This document shows positions 18,301 to 36,987 of a stretch of DNA of 64,000 bases, piece after piece (the first letter of the stretch is position 1; each line of letters begins with the position of its first letter). The stretch spans positions 3,086,501-3,150,500 of the forward strand of contig NZ_CP101416.1 in the NCBI RefSeq assembly GCF_027942295.1. The letters are read 5' to 3'. Below the pieces are notes generated by a model. That model worked only from the letters and a program-made list of their open reading frames with translations. It searched no databases and was not told the DNA's origin. A program made the position numbers and the translations under genes. This DNA is from Pseudanabaena sp. Chao 1811. Its GTDB lineage: Bacteria > Cyanobacteriota > Cyanobacteriia > Pseudanabaenales > Pseudanabaenaceae.

Positions 18301-18460
18301 TTTCTCTCCTCTGAAAGTCTACCCAGTAATGCTTTGCTCTGATGATATCTTGATTTTGGGTGTTTTTGTCACCGCCACACAGCAAAAGAATTATGGTTGC
18401 TCCTGCTTGAGCAAAATATATGCGATAACCTTGTCCATAGTCAATTCTGAGTTCCATGAC
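18287..18460 (-). pseudogene. HigB/RelE-type toxin, N-terminus removed by an IS256 fragment
   Basis: The remaining 58 codons read VMELRIDYGQGYRIYFAQ...LLLCGGDKNTQNQDI...YWVDFQRR, the C-terminal half of the phage-derived Gp49-like HigB toxins (COG3657). At 18461 the sequence switches abruptly to IS256 transposase DNA. The first about 45 residues of the toxin are missing. The nominal start in the IS sequence would give a chimeric 75-residue product. This mRNA interferase is probably inactive. Confidence 0.8.
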
Positions 18461-19104
18461 GGGTATGTGGATTTCTCCGAATGAAGGTGCGAAATTCTGG
18501 TTGTCAGTACTCACCGAAATTCACAACCGTGGGGTCAAAGATATTTTGATTGCCTGTGTCGATGGCTTGACTGGTTTCCCTAATGCGATTGAGACGGTAT
18601 TTCCTAAAACTCAGGTGCAGTTATGCATTGTCCACATGGTCAGAAACTCGGTCGCTTTTGTACCTTGGCAACAACGCAAGCAAGTTTGTGCTGACCTCAA
18701 GGCTATTTATAGCGCGGCGACGGAATCGGAGGCTGAGTTTAATCTCGAACTCTTTGCTGAAAAGTGGGACAAGCAATATCCATCAATCTCCAAGTCTTGG
18801 CGCAGTCATTGGGCAAACATTATCCCCTTCTTTGCTTTCCCGACCGAGATTCGCAGGGCGATTTATACCACCAATGCGATTGAGTCGATGAACAGTAGTT
18901 TGCGGAAGGTGATTAAATCCCAACAGATTTTTCCCTCTGATGATGCTGCTTTCAAGCTCGTTTATTTAGCAATGCGGAATATCTCGAAGAAGTGGACGAT
19001 GCCGATTCGTGATTGGAAACCTGCTCTTAATCGCTTTGCCATCCTCTTCGAGGATCGTCTCCACGTCTAGCTTCTAGACTTTACACATTTTACTTGACAA
19101 TCTC
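18461..19104 (+). mobile_element. 5'-truncated IS256-family element
   Basis: Positions 18461-19104 match 44129-44772 of the complete IS256 copy almost base for base. They cover the transposase from about residue 202 to its stop at 19070 and the right end TTTACTTGACAATCTC. The left end and the first half of the gene are missing. The left junction lies inside the HigB-like toxin gene. No target duplication can be recognised. It is transposition-defective by itself. Confidence 0.92.
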
Positions 19105-19210: not shown

Positions 19211-19282
19211 TTCGGAATAATTCTCTGATTTAGAGTCTTTTCTTTCTCAACTATTGCAACCATAATTACTTGTCTCCAATTT

Positions 19283-19864
19283 TCAAATTCCTGCTTTCAC
19301 AAAAAACTGTTCTGCTGTCACTGCTAAATCTGGGAATAACTCATCGGTTAATAGGCGATCGCCTTGATAAGTTTCAGGTGGACGATCGGGATAGAATACC
19401 GTGAAAGTTCTGCTCATCGGATCAATAACCCATACTCGTAATATTCCAGACTTCAAATAATCACCAGCCTTTGCCACAAATTCCTTAAAAGTCTGTCCTT
19501 CTGACATAATCTCAATTACTAACTCTGGCGGTACTGGACACATTTCATTACCGACATCACTAGGCAATCGTTCTATCGAAATGTAGGTCAAATCAGGTAC
19601 GGGACACCAATCTTGATCGTTGCGTGTTAGCACTATTCCCCATTCAGGATAAACAAAACCTTTGCCTTGAAACAAAGTTCGTAAAAAAATCAATAATTCT
19701 GCTTGTAAAGATGCATGAAATCTTTTTGGTGACATTTTTCTGATAACTTGACCATCGATAAATTCATAATTCTGATCAGACTCAGGGCTTGCCAAAAATT
19801 CCGCCAATGTCATTCGCTGTGATGTTACTGTCTCTATCACTGACGATTGAATCGCTGTAGTCAT
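19283..19864 (-). CDS. Uma2 family (DUF820) putative endonuclease
   Basis: From ATG 19864 (MTTAIQSS) the product has 193 residues. An AAGGAG Shine-Dalgarno seven bases upstream decides this start over the ORF start at 19885. Uma2 features are MTLAEFLASP, the YEFIDGQVIRKMSP opening, VPDLTYIS and PELVIEIMSEG (the PD-(D/E)xK core), and a C-terminal LFPDLAVTAEQFF. These genes are highly expanded in cyanobacteria. Nuclease activity is predicted from the fold but the role is unknown. A second, more diverged Uma2 gene follows upstream at 19921. Confidence 0.88.
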   Translation of the reverse strand: MTTAIQSSVIETVTSQRMTLAEFLASPESDQNYEFIDGQVIRKMSPKRFHASLQAELLIFLRTLFQGKGFVYPEWGIVLTRNDQDWCPVPDLTYISIERLPSDVGNEMCPVPPELVIEIMSEGQTFKEFVAKAGDYLKSGILRVWVIDPMSRTFTVFYPDRPPETYQGDRLLTDELFPDLAVTAEQFFVKAGI

Positions 19865-19920
19865 TTTCGTACTCCTTTTTTGCAAAAAAAATCTGTCCCG
19901 ATGTAACCACAGATTCGAGA

Positions 19921-20556
19921 TTAAATTAGAGATTTGCGAAACTCTCTTAACATGGCGCTTGTACCGATCGCGATCGCTTGATTTACAAGCTGTGGAATTA
20001 GGGTATTGATTGGTATATCTGGAAAAAGCAAACTACTCTCTGACTCTAGATAATGTCCATCGGTCAGTAAAAATATCTGCAAACTATCATTACGATAAAT
20101 CCAAACTTCAGGCACGGAGATCGCTTCGTAAGCAGATAATAAGGTCTTAGAAGTGACATCCGACTCGATCGCCAAATCAGGTGGCGGATAGATATCCACA
20201 TCAATACGTTCTTGACAATCACGCACTAAAGGTGAATTGGTAATATACAGACAAGTATCAGGTTCCACACCAGCACTTCCTTTTCGATAAAAGGTAGTTG
20301 AGCCAAAATCTTCCCAATCTCTCCCTTGCGCATCTAAAATTGCCGTTACAATATATCTCGCGAGACGATGGGGACGCTCATGTTGGGATAATGGGGAGAT
20401 AATCTCTAAAGTGCCTTGATAGTATGCAATGCGAGTATGGCGATCTTCACCTAGCTCATTAAGGATGTCTTCACAATCATGCCAACTCTGAGAATGAATG
20501 GCGATCGCACTACCATGTCGTAGGTCAATAGATTTGATGGGAATAGTGACGGTCAT
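19921..20556 (-). CDS. Uma2 family (DUF820) putative endonuclease
   Basis: From ATG 20556 (MTVTIPIK) this is a 211-residue Uma2 protein. The in-frame start at 20607 would add 17 basic residues. The core motifs are YYQGTLEIISPLSQHERPH, EPDTCLYI and PDLAIESDVTS, the last carrying the catalytic acidic positions. Its sequence differs enough from the neighbouring Uma2 at 19283 that a recent tandem duplication is unlikely. The function is unknown. Confidence 0.85.
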   Translation of the reverse strand: MTVTIPIKSIDLRHGSAIAIHSQSWHDCEDILNELGEDRHTRIAYYQGTLEIISPLSQHERPHRLARYIVTAILDAQGRDWEDFGSTTFYRKGSAGVEPDTCLYITNSPLVRDCQERIDVDIYPPPDLAIESDVTSKTLLSAYEAISVPEVWIYRNDSLQIFLLTDGHYLESESSLLFPDIPINTLIPQLVNQAIAIGTSAMLREFRKSLI

Positions 20557-20680
20557 GCGCTTTCTTCTGCTGATATATAGGTTTTTAAGTTTGCCTATAG
20601 CTATCATCAGTCGTATTTTATCAGATATTTTTGATTGTACTTTTCAGGGAATCGCCTGTTCGAGCAAGTAACCAATCAAC

Positions 20681-20713
20681 AAAAAAGCAGCCTGTTTGAC
20701 GGGCTACTTTTTT
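20681..20713. terminator. A/T-flanked stem-loop
   Basis: AAAAAAGCAGCC and GGGCTACTTTTTT pair with one mismatch around TGTTTGAC. It looks like an intrinsic terminator. It is upstream of the Uma2 gene on the minus strand and has no obvious plus-strand gene before it, so the transcript it ends is unclear. Confidence 0.6.
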
Positions 20714-20741
20714 ATGAGGCGATCGCGTCCCCTAGCTGTTA
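20710..20741. repeat. Solitary CRISPR-repeat-like copy
   Basis: AGGCGATCGCGTCCCCTAGC matches the core of the array repeat at 22107, but both ends are diverged. It lies 578 bases left of the first array repeat, in the 339-base stretch (20557-20895) between the Uma2 and SH3 genes. That stretch otherwise holds only a terminator and one hairpin. Confidence 0.5.
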
Positions 20742-20805
20742 TACCAATTCACGAAAGTGTGACAACACTTTTTTGAATTGAAAACCAAGCCCAGTAATGA
20801 TTTTA

Positions 20806-20838
20806 AAAACTAAAAATGGCGTAGCCATTTTTAGTTTT
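20806..20838. terminator. Perfect 15-base-arm hairpin downstream of the SH3 gene
   Basis: AAAACTAAAAATGGC and its complement enclose the loop GTA, 57 bases beyond the stop of the SH3 protein gene. The T-rich arm could support termination on the minus strand. Confidence 0.6.
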
Positions 20839-20895
20839 AGTATGAGTAGGGGGGAAGGAAGGCAATCTTGCCAAGTTTAGACCAGTTTTTTCCGC

Positions 20896-21261
20896 TCATC
20901 GACCACCTTCCACCCTAAAGCATCTTTCACCAAGGAAAGGTCTCGCAATCCATCCTCTAGTTCCACTGGGGATGTACTCTACATAATCCCAGTACACTGC
21001 TTCCCCGTCACTTTCACGCACGGCGGCTCCAATATCGTAACGCAGTCCGTTTACTCTTTGTCCCACTAAGACATAGCCAACGATATCAAATTCAACTCCG
21101 GGACCAGAGCGCATGTTAACCCGTGATCCTCTTTCTTGACCAACAACATCAAAATTGCAACGTCCTCGGACTATGGATTGGGCATTGGCGATCGGGGTGA
21201 TTTGAGGCAGGAGAGTAATGAGAGGGGCAATGGTTGCTACCAGAATTTTAGTTAATTTCAT
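20896..21261 (-). CDS. Exported SH3-domain (SH3b-like) protein
   Basis: This 121-residue protein has a signal peptide (MKLTKILVATIAPLITLLPQ...ANAQ, cleavage near 28). One bacterial SH3 domain follows, with the hallmark RVNMRSGPGVEFDIVGYVLVGQ and GTRGWIARPFLG. Two Cys (in GRCNFD and GERCFR) may form a disulfide in the periplasm. SH3b domains usually bind peptidoglycan or mediate protein contacts; no partner domain is present. A hairpin lies downstream and the CRISPR-like array starts 58 bases upstream of its ATG. Confidence 0.82.
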   Translation of the reverse strand: MKLTKILVATIAPLITLLPQITPIANAQSIVRGRCNFDVVGQERGSRVNMRSGPGVEFDIVGYVLVGQRVNGLRYDIGAAVRESDGEAVYWDYVEYIPSGTRGWIARPFLGERCFRVEGGR

Positions 21262-21318
21262 AGATTTGGATTTAGCTTCAATTATTTATTACAAGCAAGA
21301 TGGCTAAATAAAATCTTT

Positions 21319-21572
21319 GTTCCCAATTGATCGCGTCCTCTAAGCAATAGGGAAGCAGAACTATACTGGAGGCAGAGACAATTTAACGTGTTTGCAAATC
21401 GTATCCCCTAGCAAGTAAGGGAAACAGATTATAATTGTAGTCCATCTGAGGAGGATGAATAGTTTCTAATTGATCGCGTCCTGCAGCGAGTAGGAGACAG
21501 ATCTACTACCTTGCTCTAATTGTGGCGATCACAAGTTTCTAATTGATCGCATTCCCTAATGAGCAGGGGAAT
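21319..21572 (-). CRISPR. Degenerate end of an orphan CRISPR array (4 repeats)
   Basis: Diverged repeats start at 21319, 21390, 21462 and 21535, spaced 71-73 bases apart. Each keeps variants of GTTTCCAATCGATCGCGTCC...TAGCGAGTAGG. Repeats are about 36 bases and spacers about 35 bases, all different. Read on the minus strand the repeat ends in GATTGGAAAC, close to the ATTGAAAC end common in cyanobacterial CRISPRs. This cluster is therefore the old trailer side, and its greater decay fits that. No cas gene is in the window. Confidence 0.65.
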
Positions 21573-21685
21573 CCCAAAATGTATTTTGGGCATAGTCAAA
21601 TTTTACACGTCTCCGACGATTTGGTGCTCTGTTGATTTGATATTGAAGTAGAGATAGTACTGAGAGAGTAATAGATATTTAAACT

Positions 21686-21922
21686 TCAAACTTTCCCCTT
21701 TTTTGTTTGTATCAACTTTCCTCCCTTAATGATTACCAAGGTAGATATAGTAATTGCGACGATCGCTATCAAGATGGTAACAAAGAATTGAGGTATACAA
21801 TTCCTTAGTGGACAAAATAGAACAATCGCGATCATCAGTTCAATTAGTGTCAATATTATGGCTATGGAACCAGTAATGCCTGCCAAAATCAGAATAAACC
21901 CAAGAATTTTTTTCATAGTCAT
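21686..21922 (-). CDS. Small two-helix membrane protein
   Basis: The protein has 78 residues with two long hydrophobic stretches (about 5-37 and 46-67), a short CPLRNCIPQF loop and a basic tail (KGGKLIQTKKGKV). The charge pattern looks like a genuine membrane protein. The family is not recognised. It lies between the two clusters of CRISPR-like repeats, in a 460-base interruption of the array. Confidence 0.5.
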   Translation of the reverse strand: MTMKKILGFILILAGITGSIAIILTLIELMIAIVLFCPLRNCIPQFFVTILIAIVAITISTLVIIKGGKLIQTKKGKV

Positions 21923-22034
21923 AGATCTTACGGTATAGCAGTGGTTGCGATCGCTCAGAATTAATGCTCCCTGAAGCGATCGCTAACGAGTAGCGAATTT
22001 GAAGAAAAATCCTTGGAAATGGAAAAACATGGAA

Positions 22035-22438
22035 GTTCCCAATTGATCGCGTCCCCTAGCGAGTAGGAGAAGCACTCCAATTACAGATCCAAACAAAGCT
22101 AGTTTTGTTTCCAATCGATCGCGTCCCCTAGCGAGTAGGAGAAAAGCTGACTTAAAAGCTAAGCGCGATCGCATGATGTTTCCAATCGATCGCGTCCCCT
22201 AGCGAGTAGGAGAAAAGCTGACTTAAAAGCTAAGCGCGATCGCATGATGTTTCCAATCGATCGCGTCCCCTAGCGAGTAGGAGATCCCTACGCCACAATC
22301 CGATTCACGCGCGTTCGCTCGGGTTTCCAATCGATCGCATCCCCTAGCGAGTAGGAGACTCTCCAAGCGCGATTTTATTCAAGTGGTTTGGAAAGCAGAG
22401 AAATTTCCAATCGATCACGTCCCCTAGCGAGTAAGTAC
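22035..22438 (-). CRISPR. Better-preserved part of the orphan CRISPR array (6 repeats)
   Basis: Repeats start at 22035, 22107, 22178, 22249, 22323 and 22403. The middle ones agree on GTTTCCAATCGATCGCGTCC plus CCTAGCGAGTAGGAGA (36 bases), with an internal dyad (TCCCCTA/TAGGAGA). Spacers are 35-44 bases. The two spacers starting at 22143 and 22214 are identical and contain a HIP1 octamer. The rightmost repeat is changed at its end and is followed after 50 bases by a divergent gene, so a normal leader is missing. A possible decayed repeat lies near 21964-21998. Confidence 0.75.
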
Positions 22439-22489
22439 TGTAATACTCATACGCTATTATCTCCTGAGATATCATCAATTAAAAAAACT

Positions 22490-22828
22490 ATGGCTTTATT
22501 TCTCGTAACCAGTCTGATCGATGAAGGCATCTATGACAGTAGATTTGAAGTAGTTGAAGCAAATTCCAAGTTAGAAATTGCTGCTCACATGATTAGCAAT
22601 TCATGGCAATGGGAGCGTTTTTTGCGTAACTCTGTTCCTAGCGATTGGCGTGGCGGTGGCGTGAATTATGGCACTTTGTTAGATTGCGTCAGGCGATCGG
22701 ACATCACTCCCGAAAGGCTTTTAGAACTAATCGACATGACCAGAGTTGATGGTGATTCTGATGCTCAGTTGGCGATTCATGAGATTACACCAATATCTTT
22801 ACAGGCGGTGAATGTGAATAAATTTTGA
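22490..22828 (+). CDS. Hypothetical protein at the leader side of the array
   Basis: The 112-residue soluble protein begins MALFLVTSLIDEGIYDSRFEVVEA. I chose ATG 22490; the longer frame upstream reads into a CRISPR repeat and is not credible. Features are EIAAHMISNSWQWERFLRNS, DWRGGGVNYGTLLDCV and LLELIDMTRVDGDSDAQLAI. It gives the impression of a conserved small protein, but the family is not recognised. It is transcribed away from the CRISPR array and towards the type I RM operon. Confidence 0.65.
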   Translation: MALFLVTSLIDEGIYDSRFEVVEANSKLEIAAHMISNSWQWERFLRNSVPSDWRGGGVNYGTLLDCVRRSDITPERLLELIDMTRVDGDSDAQLAIHEITPISLQAVNVNKF

Positions 22829-22907
22829 TTTTAATTGTTTTTATTGGTAGGGATCGCCTTAATCACCTCTTCTAAATTTTTATAAATCTGTGACAGTAAA
22901 TTTAATT

Positions 22908-25900
22908 CTATTCCTGATTATATTTTTTGAAATTTTCGGCTTGTTCAAAAATCTCTTTAAATACTTCATCTTTAGGAACTGGTGGATAGTCGTTTTCGGC
23001 AAGGATGAGAATCAAATCTACTTTTAATTCGGCTTTGATATCGTCTCTTTGTGACCAGTCTGTATATTTGGCTTTGTCATCGACGATCGCTTTAACTTCA
23101 CGGGCAAGCTTAATTAGTTTGTCTTCTGGATAGGGGAACTCGTATTTTTGAGCGACGGATTTTAAAATGTCATAAAAAGCTTTTTCTTCAAAATTGATAC
23201 CTAGCTCGATAAAGGAATCACGCTCTCTTTGCAATTCTTTGAATAAGTCGGCAAATTGTTGAGCGACATCATCGAGGACATCGTTAGCAAAACCAATATA
23301 TTCTTTACGCTCGTTATATCTATCTACTAAGGCTTTGAGCTTTTTGGAAAAGTCGATCGCTTTGATTTTGTTGACGCGCTTATATTTGGCAATCGCCTTT
23401 TTTAAGAGGTTTTGCAAAAGTTTGATTTTCGTATTTGGCAATTTGATTTTGTCGATTTTTGCCATGTACTCATCGCTAAAGATGTCGATATCAGCTTCTT
23501 GATCATCTTGACCGAGTTTAAAGATTTCTTCTACACCGTCACTAACTAGAGCTTCTTTGATCATTTCCCTGACGCGCTCATTCATTTGGGAGCTATCGGG
23601 AGCATCGCCTTTGTTGAGTTTAAAGACGATCGCTCTGACCGCAAAGTAAAAATGGATATAGTCGCGTTCTAGTTCTGAAATTTGTTGGCTAGAGCAGCAA
23701 AGTTTATAGGCTGAACGTAATTTTTTGACCATGCCCATAAAGCGCTGTTCTAACTCATTGGTTAGCTGCACAAATTCGGCGGCGCGGTTGAGACATTGTA
23801 ATTTTTTTAAGGGAGTTCCATTAAAGAAGTCATCGCTATTAAATTGGATCAATAATTTGGCTAACAAATCTAGTTGATCTTTGACGATCGCAACGGCTTG
23901 ATCGATATCTTCAAAGTCATTTTCGCCAACGCTCGAATATTTCTTGAGCGCGAGATTCATACTGGTTTTGATGCCGATGTAGTCCACGACTAAGCCGCAT
24001 TCTTTGCCTTCGTAAACGCGATTTACTCTAGAGATAGTTTGGATTAGTGAATGTTGTTTAATCGCCTTGTCAATGTAGATGGTGTCTAAAAATGGCACAT
24101 CAAAGCCTGTCATCCACATATCGACAACGATCGCAATTTTAAAGTTAGATTTAGCATTCTTAAATTGCCGATCGAGTTCCTTGCGATTTTCCTTAGCGCC
24201 GATCGCATCGTATAGTTCTTTCGGATCATCCTTATCGCGGGTCATCACCATCTTGATTTTGGCGATTGGTTTGATTTCTTGACGTTCTCTTTCGGTGAGT
24301 TCTACGCCTTCATCACATTCTCTGGGTTCTGCCCATTGGGGACGCAGGGCAATAATTTCTTTGTAGAGGTTGTAGGCAATGGGGCGACTTGATGCCACAA
24401 ACATGGCTTTGCCTTTGATGGTTGCGCCTTCAGATACACGGGTTTCGTAATGTTCTACAAAGTCTTTGGCAACGGCTTTAAGGCGATCGGGATCGCCCAA
24501 GATTACTTCTAGATTTGTATTTGCCTGTTTGCTTTCTTCGATTTGATATTGATTAGTGCCTTCTTCAGCACATTTTTTATAATAGGCTTCTATCTCTTGG
24601 AGTTTGTCTTCTTTTAAGAGGACTTTGGCGGCTCTACCTTCATAGACAATGCGAACGGTGATTTCATCATCTACGGATTCTTTCATAGTGTAAGCATCGA
24701 CTACACCGCCAAATACTGCTAATGTTCCGTCAACGGGTGTGCCTGTAAAGCCGACATAGGTGGCATTGGGTAAGGAGTCGCGGAGATATTTAGCAAAGCC
24801 ATATTTTTTGTCAACGCCTTCTTTGGTTACTTTTGTTTTTTGATCGAGGTCGATTTGAGTGCGGTGGGCTTCGTCTGACATACAAATTACGTTGCTTCTG
24901 GTGGTCAGTAATTGCGTGTTTTCCGTAAATTTCTGCACGGTTGTGAGGAATACGCCGCCACTTTTGCGATTTTGAAGGTGTTTTTTGAGGTCTTCGCGGG
25001 ATTCTACGCAGATGATGTCTTGATCGCCGATGAAGCCTTTGGCGTTGGTGAATTGTTCGGATAGTTGATCGTCTAGGTCGGTGCGATCGGTGATCAGGAC
25101 GATGGTGGGGCTGGCGAAGTGGGTGCTTTTCATCAGCAAGCGCGTTAGATAGAGCATGGTGTAGCTTTTGCCGCAGCCTGTCGCGCCGAAGTATGTGCCG
25201 CCTTTACCGTCGCCGACTGGGTGCATATTGGTTTTGATGCTTTCAAATAGTTTGGTGGCGGCGTAGTATTGCGGATAGCGACAAACGACTTTTTCGTTTT
25301 TGGTGGAGGTGTCGGGAAAATGGATAAAGTCTTTGATGATGTCGAGTAGTCTTTGGCGGTTAAACATTCCCGCGATCATTGTATAGAGTGAGTCGATGCC
25401 ATCGGCGGATTTGCTATTGATGTCGGTTTTGCGCCAAGCATAGAAGTCATCGTAATCGGCAAAGAGTGAGCCGCTTTTGTTATTTACGCCATCGCTGATT
25501 ACACAAAAGGCATTGTATTTGAATAGTTCGGGAATGTCTCTTTGGTAGCGAACTGTGAGTTGGGTATAGGCATTTTTGATGGTGGTGTTTTCTTTGACTG
25601 CGCTTTTAAATTCGAGGACGACTAGAGGCAAGCCATTAATATAAACAATGGCATCGGGTATCCGTTTTTCATAGCCTTGGATTTCTAGTTGATTAACGAT
25701 TTTGAAGTTATTGTTTTTAATAGTTTGGTAATCAATCAATTGAATAAATAGGTCTTTTTGGTTACGATCTTCGCGTTTAAATAAAAAACCATCGGCGATT
25801 AATCCCATAATCGCTTTGTTGCTATCGTAAAGTGTGGAGCTTGGATAGGTTTCTAGTTGGCGAATAATGGTGGCAATTTCGTTAAGGGTGATGTCTTCGT

Positions 25901-26048
25901 ATTGATTGATTAGAAATGCTTTTAAGTCTTCTTTTAGTAAAACTTCGCTGATTTCTTTGTGGATATGCAAGCCGTTATGATGAGTTATTTGTTCGGTTTC
26001 AAATAATTCTAAGATGGCTAATTCTAGAGACTCTTCTGTGAATTTCAT
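22908..26048 (-). CDS. hsdR: Type I restriction enzyme, R (motor/nuclease) subunit, system A
   Basis: The protein has 1046 residues. The N-terminal nuclease domain has PDAIVYINGLPLVVLEFKSA (about 130-150), the PD...ExK motif. The superfamily 2 motor has Walker A GATGCGKSYT (near 290), DEAH in MSDEAHRTQ (near 389), motif III YVGFTGTP and motif VI QTISRVNRVY. It should translocate DNA and cut at a distance once assembled with HsdM and HsdS. It appears intact and full length. It starts four bases after the hsdS stop. The hsdM and hsdS genes of the same operon are both interrupted, so assembly is doubtful. Confidence 0.95.
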   Translation of the reverse strand: MKFTEESLELAILELFETEQITHHNGLHIHKEISEVLLKEDLKAFLINQYEDITLNEIATIIRQLETYPSSTLYDSNKAIMGLIADGFLFKREDRNQKDLFIQLIDYQTIKNNNFKIVNQLEIQGYEKRIPDAIVYINGLPLVVLEFKSAVKENTTIKNAYTQLTVRYQRDIPELFKYNAFCVISDGVNNKSGSLFADYDDFYAWRKTDINSKSADGIDSLYTMIAGMFNRQRLLDIIKDFIHFPDTSTKNEKVVCRYPQYYAATKLFESIKTNMHPVGDGKGGTYFGATGCGKSYTMLYLTRLLMKSTHFASPTIVLITDRTDLDDQLSEQFTNAKGFIGDQDIICVESREDLKKHLQNRKSGGVFLTTVQKFTENTQLLTTRSNVICMSDEAHRTQIDLDQKTKVTKEGVDKKYGFAKYLRDSLPNATYVGFTGTPVDGTLAVFGGVVDAYTMKESVDDEITVRIVYEGRAAKVLLKEDKLQEIEAYYKKCAEEGTNQYQIEESKQANTNLEVILGDPDRLKAVAKDFVEHYETRVSEGATIKGKAMFVASSRPIAYNLYKEIIALRPQWAEPRECDEGVELTERERQEIKPIAKIKMVMTRDKDDPKELYDAIGAKENRKELDRQFKNAKSNFKIAIVVDMWMTGFDVPFLDTIYIDKAIKQHSLIQTISRVNRVYEGKECGLVVDYIGIKTSMNLALKKYSSVGENDFEDIDQAVAIVKDQLDLLAKLLIQFNSDDFFNGTPLKKLQCLNRAAEFVQLTNELEQRFMGMVKKLRSAYKLCCSSQQISELERDYIHFYFAVRAIVFKLNKGDAPDSSQMNERVREMIKEALVSDGVEEIFKLGQDDQEADIDIFSDEYMAKIDKIKLPNTKIKLLQNLLKKAIAKYKRVNKIKAIDFSKKLKALVDRYNERKEYIGFANDVLDDVAQQFADLFKELQRERDSFIELGINFEEKAFYDILKSVAQKYEFPYPEDKLIKLAREVKAIVDDKAKYTDWSQRDDIKAELKVDLILILAENDYPPVPKDEVFKEIFEQAENFKKYNQE

Positions 26049-26695
26049 TTTTTAATTCTCCATTGTTGCCAGTTTTGAAAGTAATAAGTTTTTAAGAATG
26101 TTCAATTTTTGATTCTGCTCAATTTCACATTCAATTAACTTAATAACTTTGTTTAAATGACAATCATAGATTTTTAGAATATCCTTGGCAGGTTTAATAA
26201 TGATCATATTATTTAAGTAAGCCGTTGTCATACTTGGCACAGCAGAACCGACATCTAAAGAATTGAAATTAATTGATTTTAAATAGTAGTAAACATAGCA
26301 ACCACTATATAAATTTTTAACTATAGAATAAAACATTGTATCAACCGACCAAAAAGGCTTGTTTACAAATAAAATATTATTTAAAGAGCCTTTTCTTGGA
26401 ATTAAAATTGTTTGCTTATCATATAAATATTTATCTACATATCCCATAATTCCGCCTGAACCATACAAGGGGATTTGTCCATTTTGTAAATGCTTATAGT
26501 CTTTGCCATATTTAACTTCAATTAAATTCTCTAGTTTTGTAACTTCCCAACCTTTCGGAATCTCTCCCAATTCACTCTCTACCATTTCACCGCCATTTGA
26601 TTTATAAGGCTTTCCGTCTTCATCAGGAAACTCAAAATCAACAAACCATTGTTTATAAATCGCTTGAGCCGTTTCTTCTAACTTTTGATTCAGTA

Positions 26696-27723
26696 CAGTC
26701 CATTGAGGGATTAAGTAGTACAGTAACAACACTTAGTAAACCAATTTTTGAAGAAATCTTTTTCTAACAAGTAAGGGAAAACGTTGATTAAATGCTGAAG
26801 TAGTTTTTGAGAATGAGGTCTAAGCAATCTAATAAAATATTTGAGAACCGACCACATCATCTCAATTGGATTAAAATCAGGAGAATAGGTGGGTAAGTAC
26901 AAAATCTTAGCACCTGTCGCTGTAATTGCTTTTGCGACCCCCTCAACTTTATGGCAGTTGAGGTTATCCATGATGATCCTATGCTCAGGACGTAATTTAG
27001 GTACTAGGTCATCTTGGACAAAGGTGAGAAAATCTGCTCCTTTCATAGAACCCTGAATCGTTTTCAGGCAAACAATCCCATCAACTGAAATAGCGCCAAT
27101 TATTGTGTATTTCTGACCTTTGTAAAAGGGACGAAGACTGAATACTCTTTTGCCACATTCACTTCTTGCCACAGAGCGTTCCATCCCCTGCCATACTCCC
27201 GTTTCATCAATACAAATCAGATCTTCAGCTTTCACTTCATTCAATGCTTCCCAAAATTCACATCTTTGCTGTTGTACTGCCTCACTTTTTACCTTTTCAT
27301 GGCGATAGGTCTTTTTTTTAGAGTGATGTTATGCCTCTGGAAAAATCGGCACATGCTGCCTGTGGTCACTGATACTCCTGTTTGTTCTGCTACTTCTTCA
27401 CAGTACTGCCATAGTGTCCAATCTGGATGCTCTGAGACAATTTCGAGGATTTTCTCCTGATGCGCTTCGAGGGGACTTTTGATTGGACTACCTAATGGTT
27501 TGTGGTTTAGTTCTCCTGTCTCTCGGTATTGATTCAGTAGTTTTTGCACTGTTTTCGTCGCGACTTGAAATTGCTTCGCTACTTCCCGAATCGATGTATT
27601 TCCTGCTTCGTAGTTTGCTACGATCTTTTCTCTGAGATCTAGTGAGTAAGGTGCCATTTTTTACTCTCTTTTGGGTTTTGCTATCCTAGCTTATCTTGTA
27701 CTACTCTTTCCCTCAATAGGCTG
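26696..27723 (-). mobile_element. IS630-family insertion sequence in hsdS-A
   Basis: The element is 1028 bp. Its ends are imperfect inverted repeats (CAGTCCATTGAGGGATTAAG at 26696; the other end reads CAGCCTATTGAGGGAAAGAG). It is flanked by TA at 26694-26695 and 27724-27725, the hallmark TA target of the IS630/Tc1 group. It carries one transposase in two overlapping phases and looks complete. Confidence 0.95.
26711..27657 (-). CDS. IS630 transposase with programmed frameshift
   Basis: Frame A (27657-27289, 122 residues) holds the helix-turn-helix part (MAPYSLDLREKIVANYEAGN, VAKQFQVATKTVQKLL). It stops shortly after a run of eight A residues (minus strand, near 27312). A -1 shift there joins KKKTYRHEKV to the second frame, which runs to 26711. 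That frame carries the DDE catalytic residues in LICIDETG, IIMDNLNCHK and SPDFNPIEMMWS. Both parts are otherwise undamaged, so the enzyme is probably functional. The shift is inferred from the slippery run and family precedent. Confidence 0.9.
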
Positions 27724-29734
27724 TAAATTATTCAGCGCGATCCGATTTACCAATACATTGTATTCCTTGACAATTTCTCTCTGCTTCCCAATATCAGGAA
27801 CAGGAAGCTCCATATTACACATCTCTTCCCAACTGAAAATTTCTCTGACACTTCCGTAAGACATAAATCTTGCATAGCGATCAAATTCTGGTCTTCTAAA
27901 CCACATCATCAGATATTCGGGCAGCAATTTCTCTGTATTTACAATTTCAAAAACTGTATAAGCTTGCGAAACTAAGCCATGATCTTCATCTTCTAATAAA
28001 GCGATCGCTATTTTGTCGCCACGTCTTGAAGTATCAGGCACATAAGTAAATTGACGCTTTTTAACAATTTTGTAACTTCTAAAATCTGTGCCTACCGTAT
28101 TAGCAATTGATTGTATAAATACCTTTTGAGTTGAAACACCAAGCAAATTATCTTTTTTATCTTCTGTATTTCTGATGTCAACTTCACGAATATAAGCACC
28201 CAATTTTTTATAATTTGATCTCATAACCCAACTCCTTAAATACAGCCAGTAAATTCTTCTTAGAATGTTCTTCAGCCTTCAATAACTCCGTAAACTCTAC
28301 TTGCAAAGACAGCATCTTCTCATCAAAATCAATATTTTCATCTCGATTAATAAACTCAATATACTTACTCGGTACAAGCGAAAAATCTTTGTTTTTAACC
28401 TCATCAAATGAAGCACTATAACAAAACTCTGGAATATCTTGATAAGTTTTCTCATAATTAGTTGACTGCCAATTGTGGTAAGTCGTACTTATCTTTTGAA
28501 TGTCTGAATCAGCAAATTGTGTATATTTTTTCTCAAATGGTTCACCCATTTGGCGCAAATCCATAAACAGAATCTCATTCTCTCGATTTCTGTATCTTTT
28601 TAACTGCCCATTAAGTTCAACAGTTCGCGCCTTTTTATTTCTATTTAAAATCCAAAGCGTCACACTAATATCGGTAGTGTAAAACAAATTTCGAGGCATC
28701 ACTAAGATTGCTTCTACTAGATTATTCTCAATCAACTGCCTACGAATACTATACTCAGTCCCCCCACCCGACAAAGCCCCATTTGCCAAAATAAACCCCG
28801 CCACCCCATTCACCGACAGCTTAGACACAATATTCAAAATCCAAGCATAATTCGCATTCCCAGTCGGCGGCACATCATAACCCAACCATCGCGGATCATC
28901 AACTAACTCATTCGCCCCTCTCCATTCCTTCTGATTAAAAGGAGGATTCGCCATAATATAATCCGCCTTCAAATCCCGATGCTGATCCTTCCTAAAAGTA
29001 TCTTCAGGCACATCACCCAAATTCGCCGAAATCCCCCTAATCGCCAGATTCATCTTCGCCAGCTTATAAGTAGTCGCCGTATATTCCTGACCATAAATCG
29101 AAATATCCTTTTGATTACCATGATGGCTCTCAATAAACTTAATCGACTGCACAAACATCCCCCCCGACCCACAAGCAGGATCGTAAATCTTCCCCTTGTA
29201 AGGCTCGATCATCTCCGCAATCAAATTAACGATACTCTTCGGCGTATAAAATTCCCCTTTGCCCTTCCCTTCCGCCAAAGCAAACTTACTCAAAAAGTAC
29301 TCATATACCCGCCCCACAATATCCTGTTGCTTATCCTGAAGTGTATTAATGTTATTGATCGTATCCAACAAAGAAGCCAACTTACTAACATCCAGACTCA
29401 AACGCGAATAGTAATTGTCAGGCAAAGCCCCCTTTAGCGAAGGATTATTTTTCTCCACCGTAAACAAAGCCGTATCAATCTTTAGCGCAATATCAGCCTG
29501 TTTCGCGTTTTCCATCAAATAACCCCAACGCGACAACTCAGGCAGATAAAACACATTCTTCATGGTGTAAAACTCCACCATATCCAAATACTTATCCTTT
29601 CCCTCAGCGATCAACTCCTGCCGCCTCTCCTCAAACTTATCACTCGCAAACTTGAGAAAGATCAACCCCAAAACAACGTGCTTATATTCCGAAGACTCCA
29701 CCGAACCCCGTAACTTATTCGCCGAATCCCATAG

Positions 29735-30991
29735 CTGAGAACTTGCACCATTCTGGAAAGGGGTTGCAAAGAGAGTAAAGATGTGAAAAAAAGGGCGTAG
29801 TAGTAAATTAAATAACGATTATGGAAAGCATCGTTAAGCACGCCCAAGGTTTAGTGTATAGCCTAATTTGTCTGATGCCAAGTGTGTATCAAAAAGCAAG
29901 TCTGAATGCAATATTAGGGCTATTTCTGGAAGCGCAAGGGCATCCCTATCCAGAACATACACAGGTAAAATCAGCGAGTGCATTAAGCCGATTTCTCAAT
30001 CACTATAACTGGTCAACAAGAGGACTAATTCGAGCAACAAGGCTGTCAATTTTGGGGCAAATCGCCAAGCATCGCCCATCGAAGAGAGTGCCATTAAAGA
30101 TACTGATAGACCTGACCACCTTAGAAAAAAGCGGCAAGTTTTTACATTTGAGCAATCCCACCCCAAACGAACCAGACCCATGGGTGAGAATCCTCAACGG
30201 AAAGCGAGGACTACATCTGGTTGTACTGTATCTGGTCTATGGAGAGTGGCGCGTACCATGGAGTTTTAGAGTATGGCGCGGCAAAGGATACTCCAGTCCC
30301 TCTGACTTAGCTTGTAAGTTATTGGGGACAGTACCCAAGCAACTAACCCAAGGCAAGACTGTGATTGTCCTTGCTGATACTGAGTTTAGTACGGTGAAGT
30401 TTTTCAATGCTGTCCGCGCCAAGTCTTGGCGCATCGTTGTCGGTGTCCGCAACAATCGTAAACTTCAAGATGGACGTACCGTCAAACAACTTTATCCCCA
30501 TGGCAAACGTGGACAACTAATTTTACTGGAAGGGCTAAGTACGCCTTTGACGATCTCTTGGTTCTGGCTCAAAAGAGCCGATAGTAAACGGGAGTTACGC
30601 TTTGTGGTCTCTTCTCATCCTTATTCTGGCGCTTATCTGGTGATGTTAGGTCGTAAGCGTTGGGCGATTGAGGGATTCTTCAAAACCATCAAACATCGCT
30701 TTGGTTTGCATTGTTTTGGGCAATCTACAAAACTTGGCGTTTATCGTTGGCTTATCCTCTCTCTGCTTTCTTATCTTTTGGCTCATTGGATTGATCAATG
30801 GTCGTTTCCTCCCATCTTGGACTGGAAAGCTACCTGTGATTTAACCCTTTCTGTTTTATTCCCTTCTGTCCTTTGGTTGAAACTTCTCAGGTATCTTCAA
30901 ATTAGTGCCGATATTGCTGCTCGTCATGGCTTTGAAATTATTCTCAAACCCATTCCCACTTGACTCTTTCACGAATGCTGCAAGATCTCAG
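29735..30991 (+). mobile_element. IS4-type insertion sequence in hsdM-A
   Basis: The element is 1257 bp. Ends CTGAGAACTTGCACCATTC (left) and CTGAGATCTTGCAGCATTC (right, inverted) are imperfect inverted repeats. The 4-bp direct repeat ATAG flanks it at 29731-29734 and 30992-30995. It carries one intact transposase gene in the orientation opposite to hsdM. Confidence 0.92.
29821..30963 (+). CDS. DDE transposase (IS4-like)
   Basis: The 380-residue transposase has acidic residues placed as in IS4-like DDE enzymes: ILIDLTTLEK (first Asp), IVLADTEFST (second Asp) and KRWAIEGFFKTIKHRFG, with the Glu in an IEGFFK stretch comparable to the YREK signature region. No stop or frameshift is seen, so it is probably active. 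The exact subgroup (IS4, IS701 or related) cannot be fixed by eye. Confidence 0.88.
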   Translation: MESIVKHAQGLVYSLICLMPSVYQKASLNAILGLFLEAQGHPYPEHTQVKSASALSRFLNHYNWSTRGLIRATRLSILGQIAKHRPSKRVPLKILIDLTTLEKSGKFLHLSNPTPNEPDPWVRILNGKRGLHLVVLYLVYGEWRVPWSFRVWRGKGYSSPSDLACKLLGTVPKQLTQGKTVIVLADTEFSTVKFFNAVRAKSWRIVVGVRNNRKLQDGRTVKQLYPHGKRGQLILLEGLSTPLTISWFWLKRADSKRELRFVVSSHPYSGAYLVMLGRKRWAIEGFFKTIKHRFGLHCFGQSTKLGVYRWLILSLLSYLLAHWIDQWSFPPILDWKATCDLTLSVLFPSVLWLKLLRYLQISADIAARHGFEIILKPIPT

Positions 30992-31038: not shown

Positions 31039-31074
31039 GTTTTTAAGCGATCGCGTCCCCTAGCGAATAACAAT
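31039..31074. repeat. Solitary CRISPR-repeat-like copy before hsdM-A
   Basis: GTTTTTAAGCGATCGCGTCC followed by CCTAGCGAATAACAA matches the array repeat at about three quarters of positions, in the same orientation. It lies four bases upstream of the original hsdM ATG. The RM operon A therefore sits between the array at 22438 and this copy. Confidence 0.6.
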
Positions 31075-31181
31075 AATCTCTATTAAACCTCATATTTTGT
31101 TCATGGTCTAGATGAAATCTCTGAAGCTAGGAAGCTTATATGATACTTCTCAATAAATTCACTGTAGGAGAATCAGCGAAT

Positions 31182-31934
31182 TTATAACAAGGCGATCGCG
31201 CATAAACTTAGCGCTTCTGTCCATTCAACGATCGCACCATAACTATCGCCAGTATGTCCACCGATGCAACGATTGAACCAAGCACCAATTAACCACGCAA
31301 AACTAAAACCAATTAAGGTTAAGCCAATTCCTAAATACATAGATTGGCAAATATAGCTGATTATCAAATTGCCCATTGTTAATAAAATCGCCACTAGCCA
31401 CACTTGCCAATGATGCAAATCCTCTTGATGGAATTTGCCCTTACCGATCACTTTGAGATAGGGATAAACCATAATCGCCCTTAACTGTCCCCACCTTGCC
31501 CAAGCCCATACACTAGCTAAAATCCAAAAGCGCTGATCTCTGATTGCCGCAAGCGCAACTACTTTTAAGAATAAAATTGCGATCGCTGCCATTGCCCCAA
31601 ATGCTCCCGTATTACTATCCGCCATCACCTCAAGGCGACGATTCGGATCGGTGACTGCTAACCCATCAGCCGTATCCATAGCCCCATCGAGATGCAATCC
31701 CCCCGTAATTAATAGAGCTAATAAAATCGTCAGTAGCGATCGCAGATAAACGAATTCAGGCGCAGGTTTAACGATTCCTAGCAGCAGATCTAAACAGGCG
31801 ATCGCGCTACCAATCAAAATTCCAACCAATGGCGCATAGACAGCTATTCCCCGAAAATCTAATGCACCCTGTGGACTCAAAGGTAAACAGGTATAAAAAA
31901 TTAAGGCTGCTTGAAATTTCCGCCAATACTGCAT
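31182..31934 (-). CDS. cobS: Adenosylcobinamide-GDP ribazoletransferase (cobalamin synthase)
   Basis: This 250-residue polytopic membrane protein has the CobS signature GGLHLDGAMDTADGL (near 80-94) and FLKVVALAAI, with the conserved C-terminal RCIGGHTGDSYGA. It joins adenosylcobinamide-GDP to alpha-ribazole, the last assembly step of cobalamin (or pseudocobalamin in cyanobacteria), at the membrane. Length and topology are normal. No other cobalamin gene is adjacent, although the CbiX-like chelatase gene at 54111 belongs to the same wider pathway. Confidence 0.93.
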   Translation of the reverse strand: MQYWRKFQAALIFYTCLPLSPQGALDFRGIAVYAPLVGILIGSAIACLDLLLGIVKPAPEFVYLRSLLTILLALLITGGLHLDGAMDTADGLAVTDPNRRLEVMADSNTGAFGAMAAIAILFLKVVALAAIRDQRFWILASVWAWARWGQLRAIMVYPYLKVIGKGKFHQEDLHHWQVWLVAILLTMGNLIISYICQSMYLGIGLTLIGFSFAWLIGAWFNRCIGGHTGDSYGAIVEWTEALSLCAIALL

Positions 31935-32039
31935 TTACTAAAAACTCTAAAAATCAAAAAAGACACTTCGTATCCTTTCTAATTTAGCGTCAGTTCGATA
32001 AATGCGGAAAATGGCTGCTCGAAATCATATTAATTTGAG

Positions 32040-32068
32040 GGAGGGGCGGCACGAAGCGCCGCCCCTCC
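32040..32068. repeat. Near-perfect hairpin between cobS and the Ctp gene
   Basis: GGAGGGGCGGCAC and GCGCCGCCCCTCC pair with one mismatch around GAA. The right flank CTTACC...TTAGGACTACC matches the inner arm of the element at 15243-15374; no complete left arm was found. Confidence 0.55.
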
Positions 32069-32197
32069 TTACCACAATTTGTTAGGACTACCATTTAATT
32101 GACATTGAGGATAAACCCTAGGAGCGTTTTCGATCAAAGAAAGATTAGCTAGGATAGAGACAATAGTTTTTTTGCATCGAGAGTTTGCGTAGAGAGC

Positions 32198-33466
32198 ATG
32201 ATAAAACAGCGTCGTATTTGGTCTTGGCTTGTGATTGGTTTAATGGCGATCGCCGTCCAGTTTTTTTGGATCGGTGGCGCAAATGCTGCGGTTACAGACT
32301 ATTTGCAGGAACAGAAATTTCTAACCAATGTTTGGCAAATCGTCAACCGATCCTATGTGGATGATGATTTTAATCATCAAAACTGGTACAAAGTGCGTCG
32401 TCAATTTATCAATCGCAAGTTTAATAGTCGCGAAGACACCTATGCGGCAATCCGTGAAATGCTTGCCACACTGGATGATCCCTTCACGCGCTTGCTAGAG
32501 CCAGATAAGTTTAGAAGTATGCAAACTAGCACCTCAGGAGAGTTAACAGGCGTAGGTCTGCAAATCGCAGTGGACGAACCTGATAATACCGTGACGGTAA
32601 TTGCCCCGATTGAGGGTTCGCCTGCGGATGCAGCAGGTGTCAGATCTCGCGATCGCATTGTTGGCATTGATAATATTCCCACTAAGGGCTTAAGTCTTGA
32701 TGAATGCGCCACCAGAATGCGCGGGGCAATTGGTTCAGAAGTAAAGCTCAGTCTGGAACGTCCGCTTGCGGATGCGAAAGGTTTCGAGAAGCTTGATGTG
32801 GTAATTAAACGCGATCGCATTGCCGTTACACCAATCATTGCCAAAATCAATCAAGAGGAAAATCATAAAGTCGGTTATATCCGTTTGAATCAATTCAATG
32901 GCAATGCGGCGGCAGACATGGAAAAGACTTTGAAGAAGTTCCAATCTCAAGGTGCAGATCGTTACGTTCTCGACCTACGAGGCAATCCTGGAGGACTATT
33001 TGACGCAGGTTTACAAATTGCGCGGATGTGGATTCCCGAAGGTACTGTCGTTTATACCGTAGATCGTCATGGCGTGCAGGAGAGTTTTGAAGCTAAAGGA
33101 GATGCGATTACCAATGCGCCGTTAGTGGTACTCACCGATGGCGGTACAGCTAGTGCTAGTGAAATCCTTGCTGGGGCTTTGCAAGAGAATAATCGCGCTC
33201 AGCTTGTGGGAACGACAACCTTTGGTAAGGGGTTAATTCAATCTTTATATGAATTGGAAGATGGTGCAGGTTTGGCGGTCACTATTGCTAAGTATGAAAC
33301 CCCCCAACATCATAATATCCACAAGCGCGGCATCATTCCCGATATTGAAGTCGAGCTAACTCAACCTATTACTCGCAAACAACTCGGCACAAAGGAAGAT
33401 CCTCAATATGTGGCGGCGCTATCAGTTTTAGATGGAACCTATAAAAACATGGTAGCAAAATCATAA
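32198..33466 (+). CDS. Carboxyl-terminal processing protease (S41, Ctp family)
   Basis: The protein has 422 residues. An N-terminal signal peptide (RIWSWLVIGLMAIAVQFFWIG, cleavage near AANA) directs it to the lumen or periplasm. A PDZ domain follows (about 110-200, with GVGLQIAVDE and GVRSRDRIVGID). The S41 domain has catalytic Ser near 319 in GTASASEIL and Lys near 344 in TFGKGLIQ, 25 apart as in D1-processing CtpA. Cyanobacteria have several paralogues, of which CtpA matures the D1 protein of photosystem II. Which paralogue this is cannot be decided here. A long palindromic repeat follows the gene. Confidence 0.9.
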   Translation: MIKQRRIWSWLVIGLMAIAVQFFWIGGANAAVTDYLQEQKFLTNVWQIVNRSYVDDDFNHQNWYKVRRQFINRKFNSREDTYAAIREMLATLDDPFTRLLEPDKFRSMQTSTSGELTGVGLQIAVDEPDNTVTVIAPIEGSPADAAGVRSRDRIVGIDNIPTKGLSLDECATRMRGAIGSEVKLSLERPLADAKGFEKLDVVIKRDRIAVTPIIAKINQEENHKVGYIRLNQFNGNAAADMEKTLKKFQSQGADRYVLDLRGNPGGLFDAGLQIARMWIPEGTVVYTVDRHGVQESFEAKGDAITNAPLVVLTDGGTASASEILAGALQENNRAQLVGTTTFGKGLIQSLYELEDGAGLAVTIAKYETPQHHNIHKRGIIPDIEVELTQPITRKQLGTKEDPQYVAALSVLDGTYKNMVAKS

Positions 33467-33474
33467 ATTAATCG

Positions 33475-33544
33475 CCCCCTAGCCCCCAATTCTGGGGGAA
33501 CAATAATTTTCAAAGTCCCCCAGAATTGGGGGATTTAGGGGGCT
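33475..33544. repeat. Long palindrome with CCCCCAATTCTGGGGG arms
   Basis: GCCCCCTAGCCCCCAATTCT and its near-complement on the right side form a long stem with an AT-rich centre; each arm also contains its own smaller palindrome CCCCCAATTCTGGGGG. This type of repeat is widespread in cyanobacterial intergenic DNA. It starts 9 bases after the Ctp stop and could act as its terminator. Confidence 0.7.
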
Positions 33545-33593
33545 TGATAAATCACAACAAAGATAGAGAGATTTGTGTGTATAAGATAGATTT

Positions 33594-34931
33594 TTATGTG
33601 GAGTATAAACTCTGTAGAGTTGGAATAAAGGAAGGATAGGAAATTGCGGCGGATTCGGCACGGTTGATTGAGGTTTTGCCTTTGGCAACTAGAGCCGCGA
33701 TCGCTAAACTCATGGCTATACGATGATCGTCATAGCTATCGACCTCAGTACCCGTCAGCGCTTTACCGCCGACGATTTCCATGCCATCGGGTCGCTCAGT
33801 CACATTTGCACCGAGTTTGGTTAATTCCTTCACCATTGCCACAATTCGATCGCTTTCTTTGACCCGCAGTTCTTCGGCATCCTCAATAATGGTTGTTCCT
33901 TCTGCACAACTAGCGGCGATCGCTAAAATGGGAATCTCATCAATTAAACGAGGAATGACCGCACCACCGATGCGGCAAGCTTTGAGAGATGCCGAACGCA
34001 CATGTAAATCGGCAACGGGTTCGCCTGTAACTTCGCGTTCATTTTCATAGGTAATGTCGGCTCCCATTTCCGCAAGAACTTCTAAAATCCCTGTACGAGT
34101 GGGATTAATTCCCACATTCTCAATTACTAAATCAGAATTGGGAACGATTGAGGCAGCGACTAGCCAAAAAGCAGCAGAACTAATATCTCCGGGGACGGTT
34201 ACTTCTTGACCAACTAATTTTGCACCACCTTTAACGGAGACCGTATTGGTGTCAACATCGACACTGACATTCGCGCCAAAAGCTGCCAACATTCTTTCAC
34301 TGTGATCACGCGATCGCTCTGGCTCGGTGATAATCGTTTCGCCATCGGTCATCAAACCTGCCAGCATGATGCAGGACTTGACCTGTGCCGAAGCGACGGG
34401 GGATTGATAGTGAATTGCTTTGAGATTTTGTCCTGAAATGGCGAGGGGTGCACGCGCTCCATTTTCTCTACCCCAAATACTAGCTCCCATTTGGCGCAAA
34501 GGATTGACGACGCGGGACATGGGACGCGATCGTAAGGAAGCATCACCTGTGACTGTAAAGAAGCGATCGGGATGGCTCGCTAAAATGCCTAACATTAACC
34601 GTAGCGTAGTGCCTGAATTACCTGCATTGAGCACATCTACGGGTTCCTTGAGATTCCCTAGCCCAATCCCCTTGACGATCACTAAATCTGAATTTAGCTC
34701 AGATATTTCCGCCCCCATCGCCGCAAAACAAGCTGCGGTACTACGAGGATCTTCCCCCAGTAGTAGCCCACGAATTCGTGTTTCTCCTTCGGCAAGGGAG
34801 CCAAGCATTAACGCCCGATGCGAAATGGATTTATCCCCCGGAATCGTAATTCTGCCCTGTAACCCCTGAGGCAACTGGCTAGAGTCAATAGTGAGGATAT
34901 GGTTGGGGTGCGTAGTGGCAAGGTCAATCAT
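33594..34931 (-). CDS. aroA: 3-phosphoshikimate 1-carboxyvinyltransferase (EPSP synthase)
   Basis: From ATG 34931 the protein has 445 residues; the longer frame would need a TTG. Motifs are [19 protein letters not shown] (PEP/S3P-binding), [15 protein letters not shown], the RPMSR loop and a C-terminal DYHDHR-like [10 protein letters not shown] with the catalytic acidic and His residues. It transfers enolpyruvate from PEP to shikimate-3-phosphate in aromatic amino acid synthesis in the cytoplasm. It is a single gene. The Yip1-family gene diverges from it. Confidence 0.97.
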
Positions 34932-35053
34932 GTTAAAGTCAGTTAGCAATTACTATTAGATTACAGTGCTTTGCGCTCTCCGTAAAACATAGAGTTTTGT
35001 TGAAAGTGTTGCCAAATAACCCTTTCAAGAATAGTTGCTCATAGGAAGAAACC

Positions 35054-35689
35054 ATGAATGCCACGCCCAATCCTGAAGATATTAATGCGATCGCTCCTGA
35101 TAGCAGCACCGATAGCAATACCAGTAGCAATGCTGAAAGTGTTACTCTTCCCGCACCACCACAAAATTTAGGGACATTTCTCGATCGCCTATATGGGACA
35201 TTATTTTTGCCCCAAGTAACCTTTGAGCAACTCAAGGCACATCCGTCCTTTGTGCAAGCAGCGATCGTGATTGCTTTAGTCAATGCTTTGGAAGCCATTC
35301 GCCTTGATCATTTATCGATTGTGAGAATTATCGGCTCGGTGATTGGTGGGAGCATTGGCTGGGTATTTTTTACATTTTTATTGAAACAATTGGCTAATGT
35401 GTTTCAAAAGAATGTGGAGATGCTGGAGTTACTGACCCTCACGGGTTTTGCGAGCTTACCTTGGATATTCATGGCTCCTGCCCTCAGCTTGCCACCCCAA
35501 TCCCGTTTTCTTGGCGCGATCGCGGTGATCATCTGGTTTATTGTCTGGCAGGTATGGAGCGCATCGGTAGCACTAGGTATTAAAAGCTGGAAAACTTTAG
35601 CGATCATTCCTTTAGCGATCGCTGGTGGTATCGTTGCCCTGATTTGGCTCGGTAACACCATCAAGTTGCTATTGAGCATTAGCTTTTAA
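35054..35689 (+). CDS. Yip1-domain membrane protein
   Basis: The protein has 211 residues. After a Ser/Asn-rich soluble leader (about 1-45) come about five hydrophobic segments (72-88, 94-115, 130-150, 158-175 and 183-205). Family features are FLDRLYGTLFLPQVTFEQL near the start and LLTLTGFASLPWIFMAPA in the middle, typical of bacterial Yip1-domain proteins. The molecular role in bacteria is unknown. Its stop codon is part of the inverted-end element that separates it from sqdX. Confidence 0.75.
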   Translation: MNATPNPEDINAIAPDSSTDSNTSSNAESVTLPAPPQNLGTFLDRLYGTLFLPQVTFEQLKAHPSFVQAAIVIALVNALEAIRLDHLSIVRIIGSVIGGSIGWVFFTFLLKQLANVFQKNVEMLELLTLTGFASLPWIFMAPALSLPPQSRFLGAIAVIIWFIVWQVWSASVALGIKSWKTLAIIPLAIAGGIVALIWLGNTIKLLLSISF

Positions 35690-35784: not shown

Positions 35785-35785
35785 T

Positions 35786-36910: not shown

Positions 36911-36959
36911 AGTTATAACTGCACGGAATCGTTGTCTGTAAGTTGACAGCATCATAAAA

Positions 36960-36987
36960 GAAAAAGCACCCTATAGGGTGCTTTTTC
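36960..36987 (-). terminator. Intrinsic terminator downstream of ilvN
   Basis: GAAAAAGCACCC, TATA, GGGTGCTTTTTC form a 12-base stem with A/T flanks 26 bases beyond the ilvN stop, before the sqdX start region. Confidence 0.85.

Follow-up and report, generated by a model that had tools for sequence, protein, structure and literature searches.

The repeats at positions 21319-22438 of the window, the whole 64,000-nt stretch of Pseudanabaena sp. Chao 1811 DNA that was analysed, very probably represent an inert relic, left over from the trailer side of a type III-B (Cmr) CRISPR-Cas locus, and the array is clearly a genomic fossil and not a new kind of system. A specific account can be given of the site, namely that a III-B locus was left without its operon and leader side and that a type I restriction-modification (R-M) cluster now lies there. 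What was lost and what replaced it is evident from an intact counterpart in a relative and from scars at both edges of the site, neither of which was visible to the reader of an initial annotation made from the window alone. Orphan arrays are well known, often with no account of where they came from; in this case the lost operon can be identified. The locus is a neat example of turnover among defence genes at a single place in the chromosome, from a III-B operon to a type I R-M cluster, and may be of use in ordering or modelling the loss of CRISPR among cyanobacteria. The portions of the literature that a search returned contained no paper about this locus, and absence from print is not claimed.

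Structure of the array

Ten CRISPR repeat copies of approximately 36 nt, a decayed group of four on the left and six better preserved ones on the right, were located at 21319-22438, with plus-strand starts at 21319, approximately 21390, 21462, 21535, 22035, 22107, 22178, 22249, 22323 and 22403. Eight of these were placed by gap-free alignment at no more than 12 mismatches and the first two by eye. Repeats within clusters were spaced 71-80 nt apart and 464 nt separated the left cluster from the right, so that the repeat number, spacing and two-cluster layout given in the initial annotation were borne out. The repeat reads GTTTCCAATCGATCGCGTCCCCTAGCGAGTAGGAGA on the plus strand and UCUCCUACUCGCUAGGGGACGCGAUCGAUUGGAAAC on the minus strand, where it has the annotated GGAAAC at its 3' end. 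With up to three mismatches, the 19-nt repeat core was matched seven times in the window as opposed to 0 times in 100 shuffles. Eight spacers of 35-44 nt, seven of them distinct, lie between the repeats. Similar-length but differing spacers between repeats, together with the occurrence of the same repeat beside cas genes in eight congeners, identify the feature as a CRISPR array.

The left, trailer-side cluster (21319-21570, minus strand) comprises the four decayed repeats and three spacers; the repeat at approximately 21390 carries a short deletion, and the two repeats aligned with the consensus of congener G014 differed from it by 6 and 7 mismatches. The right cluster (22035-22438, minus strand) comprises six repeats and five spacers, including an exact duplication of a 71-nt repeat-spacer unit (22107-22177 and 22178-22248), and its rightmost, leader-side repeat is truncated, leaving the consensus after GAGTA at about 22433. 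Between the clusters is a 464-nt interruption (21571-22034) with a 78-aa open reading frame (ORF) at 21686-21922 on the minus strand; the ORF had no Pfam match, and a tblastn search of those relatives' loci that were covered gave no match either. In the region 20000-24000, a search for known RNA families returned only a tmRNA match far below the cut-off.

The leftward decay described initially was confirmed for the four left repeats but is not by itself evidence of a relic. Of the six right-hand repeats, three were identical to the GGAGA-ending consensus of G022, G027 and G019 and another was one base off, which indicates that decay is modest. Mean mismatches to each array's own consensus, counted without gapped or isolated repeats and hence for eight of the ten window repeats, were 2.75 in the window's own genome (G000), about as many as in the operon-bearing G022 (2.42), G027 (2.56) and G010 (2.62), with 1.81 in G019, 1.67 in G025 and 0.06-0.55 in G014, G013, G008 and G015. 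Thus, unevenness, which also occurs in operon-bearing genomes, does not show abandonment, whereas loss of the operon, loss of the sequence preceding the first repeat and truncation of that repeat do. Five congeners with III-B operons (L034/L035, L037, L040, L032/L033 and L044) had uneven arrays with 0-26% of repeats identical to the consensus, unlike G014, the most regular, in which 96 of 98 repeats were identical and Cas1 and Cas2 adjoin the array. A link between uneven repeats and missing cas1/cas2 beside the array was considered and dropped, since the arrays of G008 and G015 are even with no cas1 in the stretches fetched.

Type III-B operons beside the same repeat in congeners

In eight congeners, arrays of this repeat adjoin homologous type III-B (Cmr) operons. 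The operon of G022 was assigned to type III-B from profile scores for Cas10b, Cmr3, Cmr4, Cmr5, Cmr6 and Csx1. Searched with G022 Cas10, matches at E below 1e-100 were found in G008, G010, G014, G015, G019, G022, G025 and G027 and, outside the genus, in G003, while G018 (41 aa), G005 and G006 gave only short weak matches. Matches spanning stop codons were noted, one in G008, G015 and G019 and two in G014. A strong III-B Cas10 match was present in eight of the nine genomes with at least nine repeats and in 0 of 15 repeat-less congeners (two of these being under 90% complete and one, G018, giving the weak 41-aa match). The exception among genomes with at least nine copies was G013 (L029, L030 and L031), with 78 repeats and no Cas10 match in the genome; its array adjoins homologues of the Cas1, Cas2 and CARF-like gene of G014, and this genome is possibly another partial loss. 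In G014, the cmr4 and cmr3 ORFs (L028:16912-17708) were short, 71 and 174 aa as opposed to 276-364 aa in relatives.

The matching site in a relative

The best match around the window's cobS-like gene was from G022, where array, III-B operon and cobS are all present at the corresponding site. This right anchor (31182-31934, minus strand) was placed by nucleotide comparison and is taken to be cobS by reading rather than by a family search. The gene order in G022 is a homologue of window 19921-20607, the array, csx1 to Cas10, a divergent gene and cobS, while that of the window is two genes, the array, a 112-aa gene, hsdR, an interrupted hsdS, hsdM, an insertion sequence and cobS. Window 31121-38507 was 89-95% identical to G022, the match starting at the edge of the III-B operon that faces away from the array, and window 19926-20648 matched it at 89% on the other side of the G022 array. 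The left anchor (19261-20736, minus strand) consists of a Uma2-family gene (19283-19885), a second gene (19921-20607), also presumed from reading to be Uma2, and a terminator-like element; 19261-20736 was 90% identical to the trailer-side flank of the G019 array and matched G022 in part. The element, approximately 95 nt at 20638-20736, contains a terminator-like hairpin with a T-run on one side and an A-run on the other, and recurs near array trailer ends or other genes in G008, G012, G019, G022, G025 and G027.

In G019 the III-B module is reversed, with cobS beyond the trailer side, and in the other six operon-bearing genomes no cobS match was found within the stretches fetched around the arrays, which indicates that the III-B module is not fixed to one site in the genus. 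The window left of 19261 is not syntenic with G022, and the match of 45250-64000 to G022 is largely in inverted order; the region has therefore been rearranged more than once. Two copies of a transposase-like protein (18456-19070 and 43527-44738) are 99% identical over 204 aa, the first being shorter.

Scars at both edges

Between the two anchors, remnants of the two outermost genes of the lost segment were recognised. At 22849-22895 on the minus strand, in the expected place and orientation, is the 3' end of csx1, 83-85% identical to csx1 of G022, G027, G010 and G025 in matches of 47-52 nt (E 3.9e-7 to 4.8e-6) and in frame (LLSQIYKNLEEVIKAI as compared with LMSQVHKNLEEVIKAI in G022). At 31121-31156 on the plus strand are the final codons (LKLGSLYDTSQ*) of a gene that, in G022 (L035:9799-10959), adjoins the operon between Cas10 and cobS and ends VLKLASLYDISR*. 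Homologues of the flanking gene were present in fetched loci of G008, G010, G013, G015 and G019; its WYL label is taken from the annotation of a Leptolyngbya counterpart. Both scars are short, 47 nt and approximately 36 nt. As a control for the second, a query beginning at 31121 was matched from its first base in G022 alone, whereas in 23 other congeners the listed match over cobS started at base 49-72, close to the end of cobS (base 62), and G030 had no match over cobS among the matches listed. A tblastn comparison of the window with 41 ORFs taken from arrays and operons in G014, G019 and G022 gave matches to the array, to the flanking genes and at the csx1 scar, and beyond these only short ones.

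What now fills the site

A stretch of approximately 35-40 nt between the csx1 stop and the first repeat is common to G010, G015, G019, G022, G025 and G027, the interval being occupied by other sequences in G008, G014 and G013. The corresponding place in the window (22439-22489) is not conserved with the six congeners, their shared stretch is absent from the window and no native leader was found, a new promoter being possible. The divergent gene that the initial annotation placed at the leader position is the 112-aa gene at 22490-22828 on the plus strand, which is unrelated, had no Pfam match and has homologues on two cyanobacterial plasmids.

Where the III-B operon would lie is a type I R-M cluster (22908-29701, minus strand). 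It consists of hsdR (22908-26048), hsdS in two parts (26052-26732 and 27691-28224) and hsdM (28208-29701), all on the minus strand. The first hsdS part scored above the Pfam cut-off for Methylase_S and the second below it, so that the latter is presumed from reading to be hsdS. An insertion sequence (26711-27657) lies between the parts; the specificity gene appears to have been split by it, and the R-M cluster may itself be inactive. A second insertion sequence (29735-30991, plus strand; transposase ORF 29821-30963) is absent from the matching stretch of G032. Elsewhere in the window, two proteins (37652-40867 and 46388-48445) show distant similarity (24-25%) to HsdR and HsdM of the cluster.

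Direction, repeat fold and related systems

In relatives the array comes directly after csx1 on the strand of the operon, and the III-B locus of a Leptolyngbya boryana plasmid is alike in this respect. By the same arrangement, transcripts of the window array would run leftward, in agreement with the minus-strand transcription and right-hand leader proposed in the initial annotation. In the intact locus, leftward transcripts would have been cut within the repeat and loaded into a Cas10-Cmr complex that, as is general for type III systems, would recognise foreign RNA and switch on Csx1. At the matching site, this genome lacks the operon and the conserved stretch before the first repeat, the R-M cluster and insertion sequences now lie there instead, and the 3' ends of the two outermost genes persist as scars; the array, now presumably without working guides, would be drifting neutrally.

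Seven window repeats were folded. Minus strands of the repeats at 22035, 22107 and 22323 gave a centroid with a 7-bp stem and a 5-nt loop followed by a single-stranded tail, the repeat at 21535 gave a 5-bp version of the stem, and those at 21319, 21462 and 22403 did not form it. Z-scores of the seven ranged from -1.06 to +1.10, which indicates a hairpin no more stable than those of shuffled sequences. The internal dyad noted initially is thus real, with the full stem in three of seven repeats, but it is not strong.

Compared with the III-B loci of Pseudanabaena (e.g., G022, G019 and G008, median spacer length 36-38 nt), the window array is alike in its 36-nt repeat and in array strand and, in the case of G022, also in its genomic site adjoining cobS. 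It differs in that cas genes and the conserved stretch before the first repeat are missing, that repeat is truncated, the array is interrupted and an R-M cluster stands where the operon would be. The III-B locus of Leptolyngbya boryana plasmid pLBX encodes Cas10/Cmr2, Cmr3, Cmr4 and three further genes with an array directly behind on the same strand, and a WYL-domain gene diverges beside Cas10. Its repeat ends TGAATGGAAAC with a stem that differs from that of the window repeat, and, unlike the window locus, it is on a plasmid and retains its operon, the Cas10 of which is 48% identical to that of G022.

CRISPR3 of Synechocystis PCC 6803, as described in one report, is of subtype III-Bv, with a 13-nt guide tag AUUGAUUGGAAAC, a leader of 1 nt and no involvement of Cas6 (PMC3575380). 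A second report attributes its maturation to RNase E, which recognises the stem-loop and cuts the single-stranded stretch after it (PMC10989914). Against the tag as given in the former text, the last 13 nt of the window repeat, AUCGAUUGGAAAC, were identical at 12 of 13 positions, and the stem-loop with its single-stranded tail has the layout described in the latter for the RNase E-cut repeat. A weak Cas6 model, which found the family in 2 of 14 controls, gave no match in the window's own assembly. By analogy with CRISPR3, the window array may have been matured by RNase E. Synechocystis PCC 6803 is unlike the window in having an operon and abundant guides.

Could the array still be in use?

The initial annotation reported no cas gene within 20 kb on either side and left two readings, a relic or the use of Cas proteins encoded elsewhere. 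The same two origins, remnants of decaying systems or arrays served by Cas proteins in trans, are suggested for orphan arrays in PMC9071438; in contrast with orphan arrays generally, the operon lost here was identified through the matching site of a relative and the scars at both edges. The absence of cas genes extends to the whole assembly, which is 4.73 Mb in one contig, for the five families searched, namely Cas1, Cas10 (G022 query), RAMP (PF03787), Cas6 and Cas3-HD. In control searches of 14 genomes, Cas1 was found in 9, RAMP in 4, Cas6 in 2 and Cas3-HD in 7, making Cas6 the weakest of these absence tests. Neither Cas10/Cmr2 nor the RAMP (Cmr) proteins on which a functional III-B system depends were thus detected in the assembly, and the recommended genome-wide search for a cas locus with the same repeat returned the repeat only at the array and no match to the five families. 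Cas proteins encoded elsewhere would have to belong to other families, such as Cas9, Cas12 or Cas13, or to an unassembled replicon such as a plasmid.

There is a small chance that the orphan array remains in use, transcribed from a newly acquired promoter and supplied with Cas proteins by a plasmid missing from the assembly. The three right-hand repeats identical to the relatives' consensus, the retained hairpin and the occurrence of related III-B operons on cyanobacterial plasmids are all in keeping with such use, and an assembly of one contig may lack plasmids. Against it are the five missing Cas families, the loss of the pre-repeat stretch, the truncated first repeat and the interruption. 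In addition, a simple promoter scan of 20600-23000 gave one minus-strand match, within the neighbouring gene, as opposed to a mean of 5.5 in shuffles. The relic reading is strongly favoured.

It is somewhat less probable still that the array yields guide-like small RNAs without Cas proteins, which could act as ordinary antisense RNAs. Since cleavage in this subtype may fall to housekeeping RNase E, crRNA-like RNAs could outlive loss of the effector; in Synechocystis, however, knock-out of Cmr2 removed all CRISPR3-derived crRNA, according to PMC3575380.

Spacer targets

Spacers were compared with phages and plasmids, as proposed in the initial annotation, and the comparison gave only chance-level matches (E 0.3-4) and no target. 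Spacer cores had 0 exact matches in viral_contigs for five of the seven distinct spacers, which were all but two from the decayed left cluster. Among 364 spacers compared, six of the window's eight included, none was shared between the window and its relatives and the only cross-genome pairs were G022/G015 and G027/G010; all seven distinct window spacers likewise had no counterpart in the relatives' arrays.

Retention of the array for a role other than defence, either through spacers against incoming cas genes or in the control of host genes, is improbable. A title cited in PMC9071438 reports orphan arrays with anti-cas spacers. The seven distinct spacers were compared with 1.26 Mb of DNA, mainly the cas-operon loci of relatives, dropping rows in the array itself and at 11 loci of its own genome, and gave 32 matches of 13-17 nt. 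This number was above chance (2-16 in 20 shuffled sets), but the best match, at 30.2 bits, fell within the range of best matches in the shuffled sets (26.3-34.2 bits). One spacer with a common octamer, GCGATCGC, accounted for 24 of the 32. No convincing anti-cas spacer and no long match to the relatives' cas genes was found. As to host genes, a search with the array DNA returned no other locus in the window's own genome at E 0.001, hence no self-targets.

Distribution of the repeat

The initial annotation had named dispersal of the 36-mer at hundreds of sites as the mark of an interspersed repeat; with up to three mismatches, the 36-mer occurred five times in the assembly, always at the array. 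At the same stringency, a 21-nt core occurred nine times, seven in the array and once each at 20721 and 31049, all within the window. A 32-nt part of the repeat, again with up to three mismatches, was present in 12 of 38 genomes of the family, the window's own included, with five copies in the latter, one each in G002 and G012 and 9 to 108 in the other nine. A scan of named genomes located the repeat core in 15 stretches, 14 from Pseudanabaena and one from Elainella, and a plasmid search located the repeat itself in one Pseudanabaena plasmid. Although single short motifs also occur at 20721 and 31049, close to hsdM in G032 and at one place in G023, an interspersed repeat family is refuted, to near certainty, by the confinement of core matches in the assembly to the window and by the arrays that relatives have next to Cas operons, in which the copies number up to 108 and the spacers differ.

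The lone motif at 31049-31069, which resembles half a repeat, lies near hsdM, as does its counterpart in G032 (C1:1247938-1247958), and was seen once in G023 (C23:69136-69156); both of these genomes had no match in the 32-nt survey of 38 genomes.
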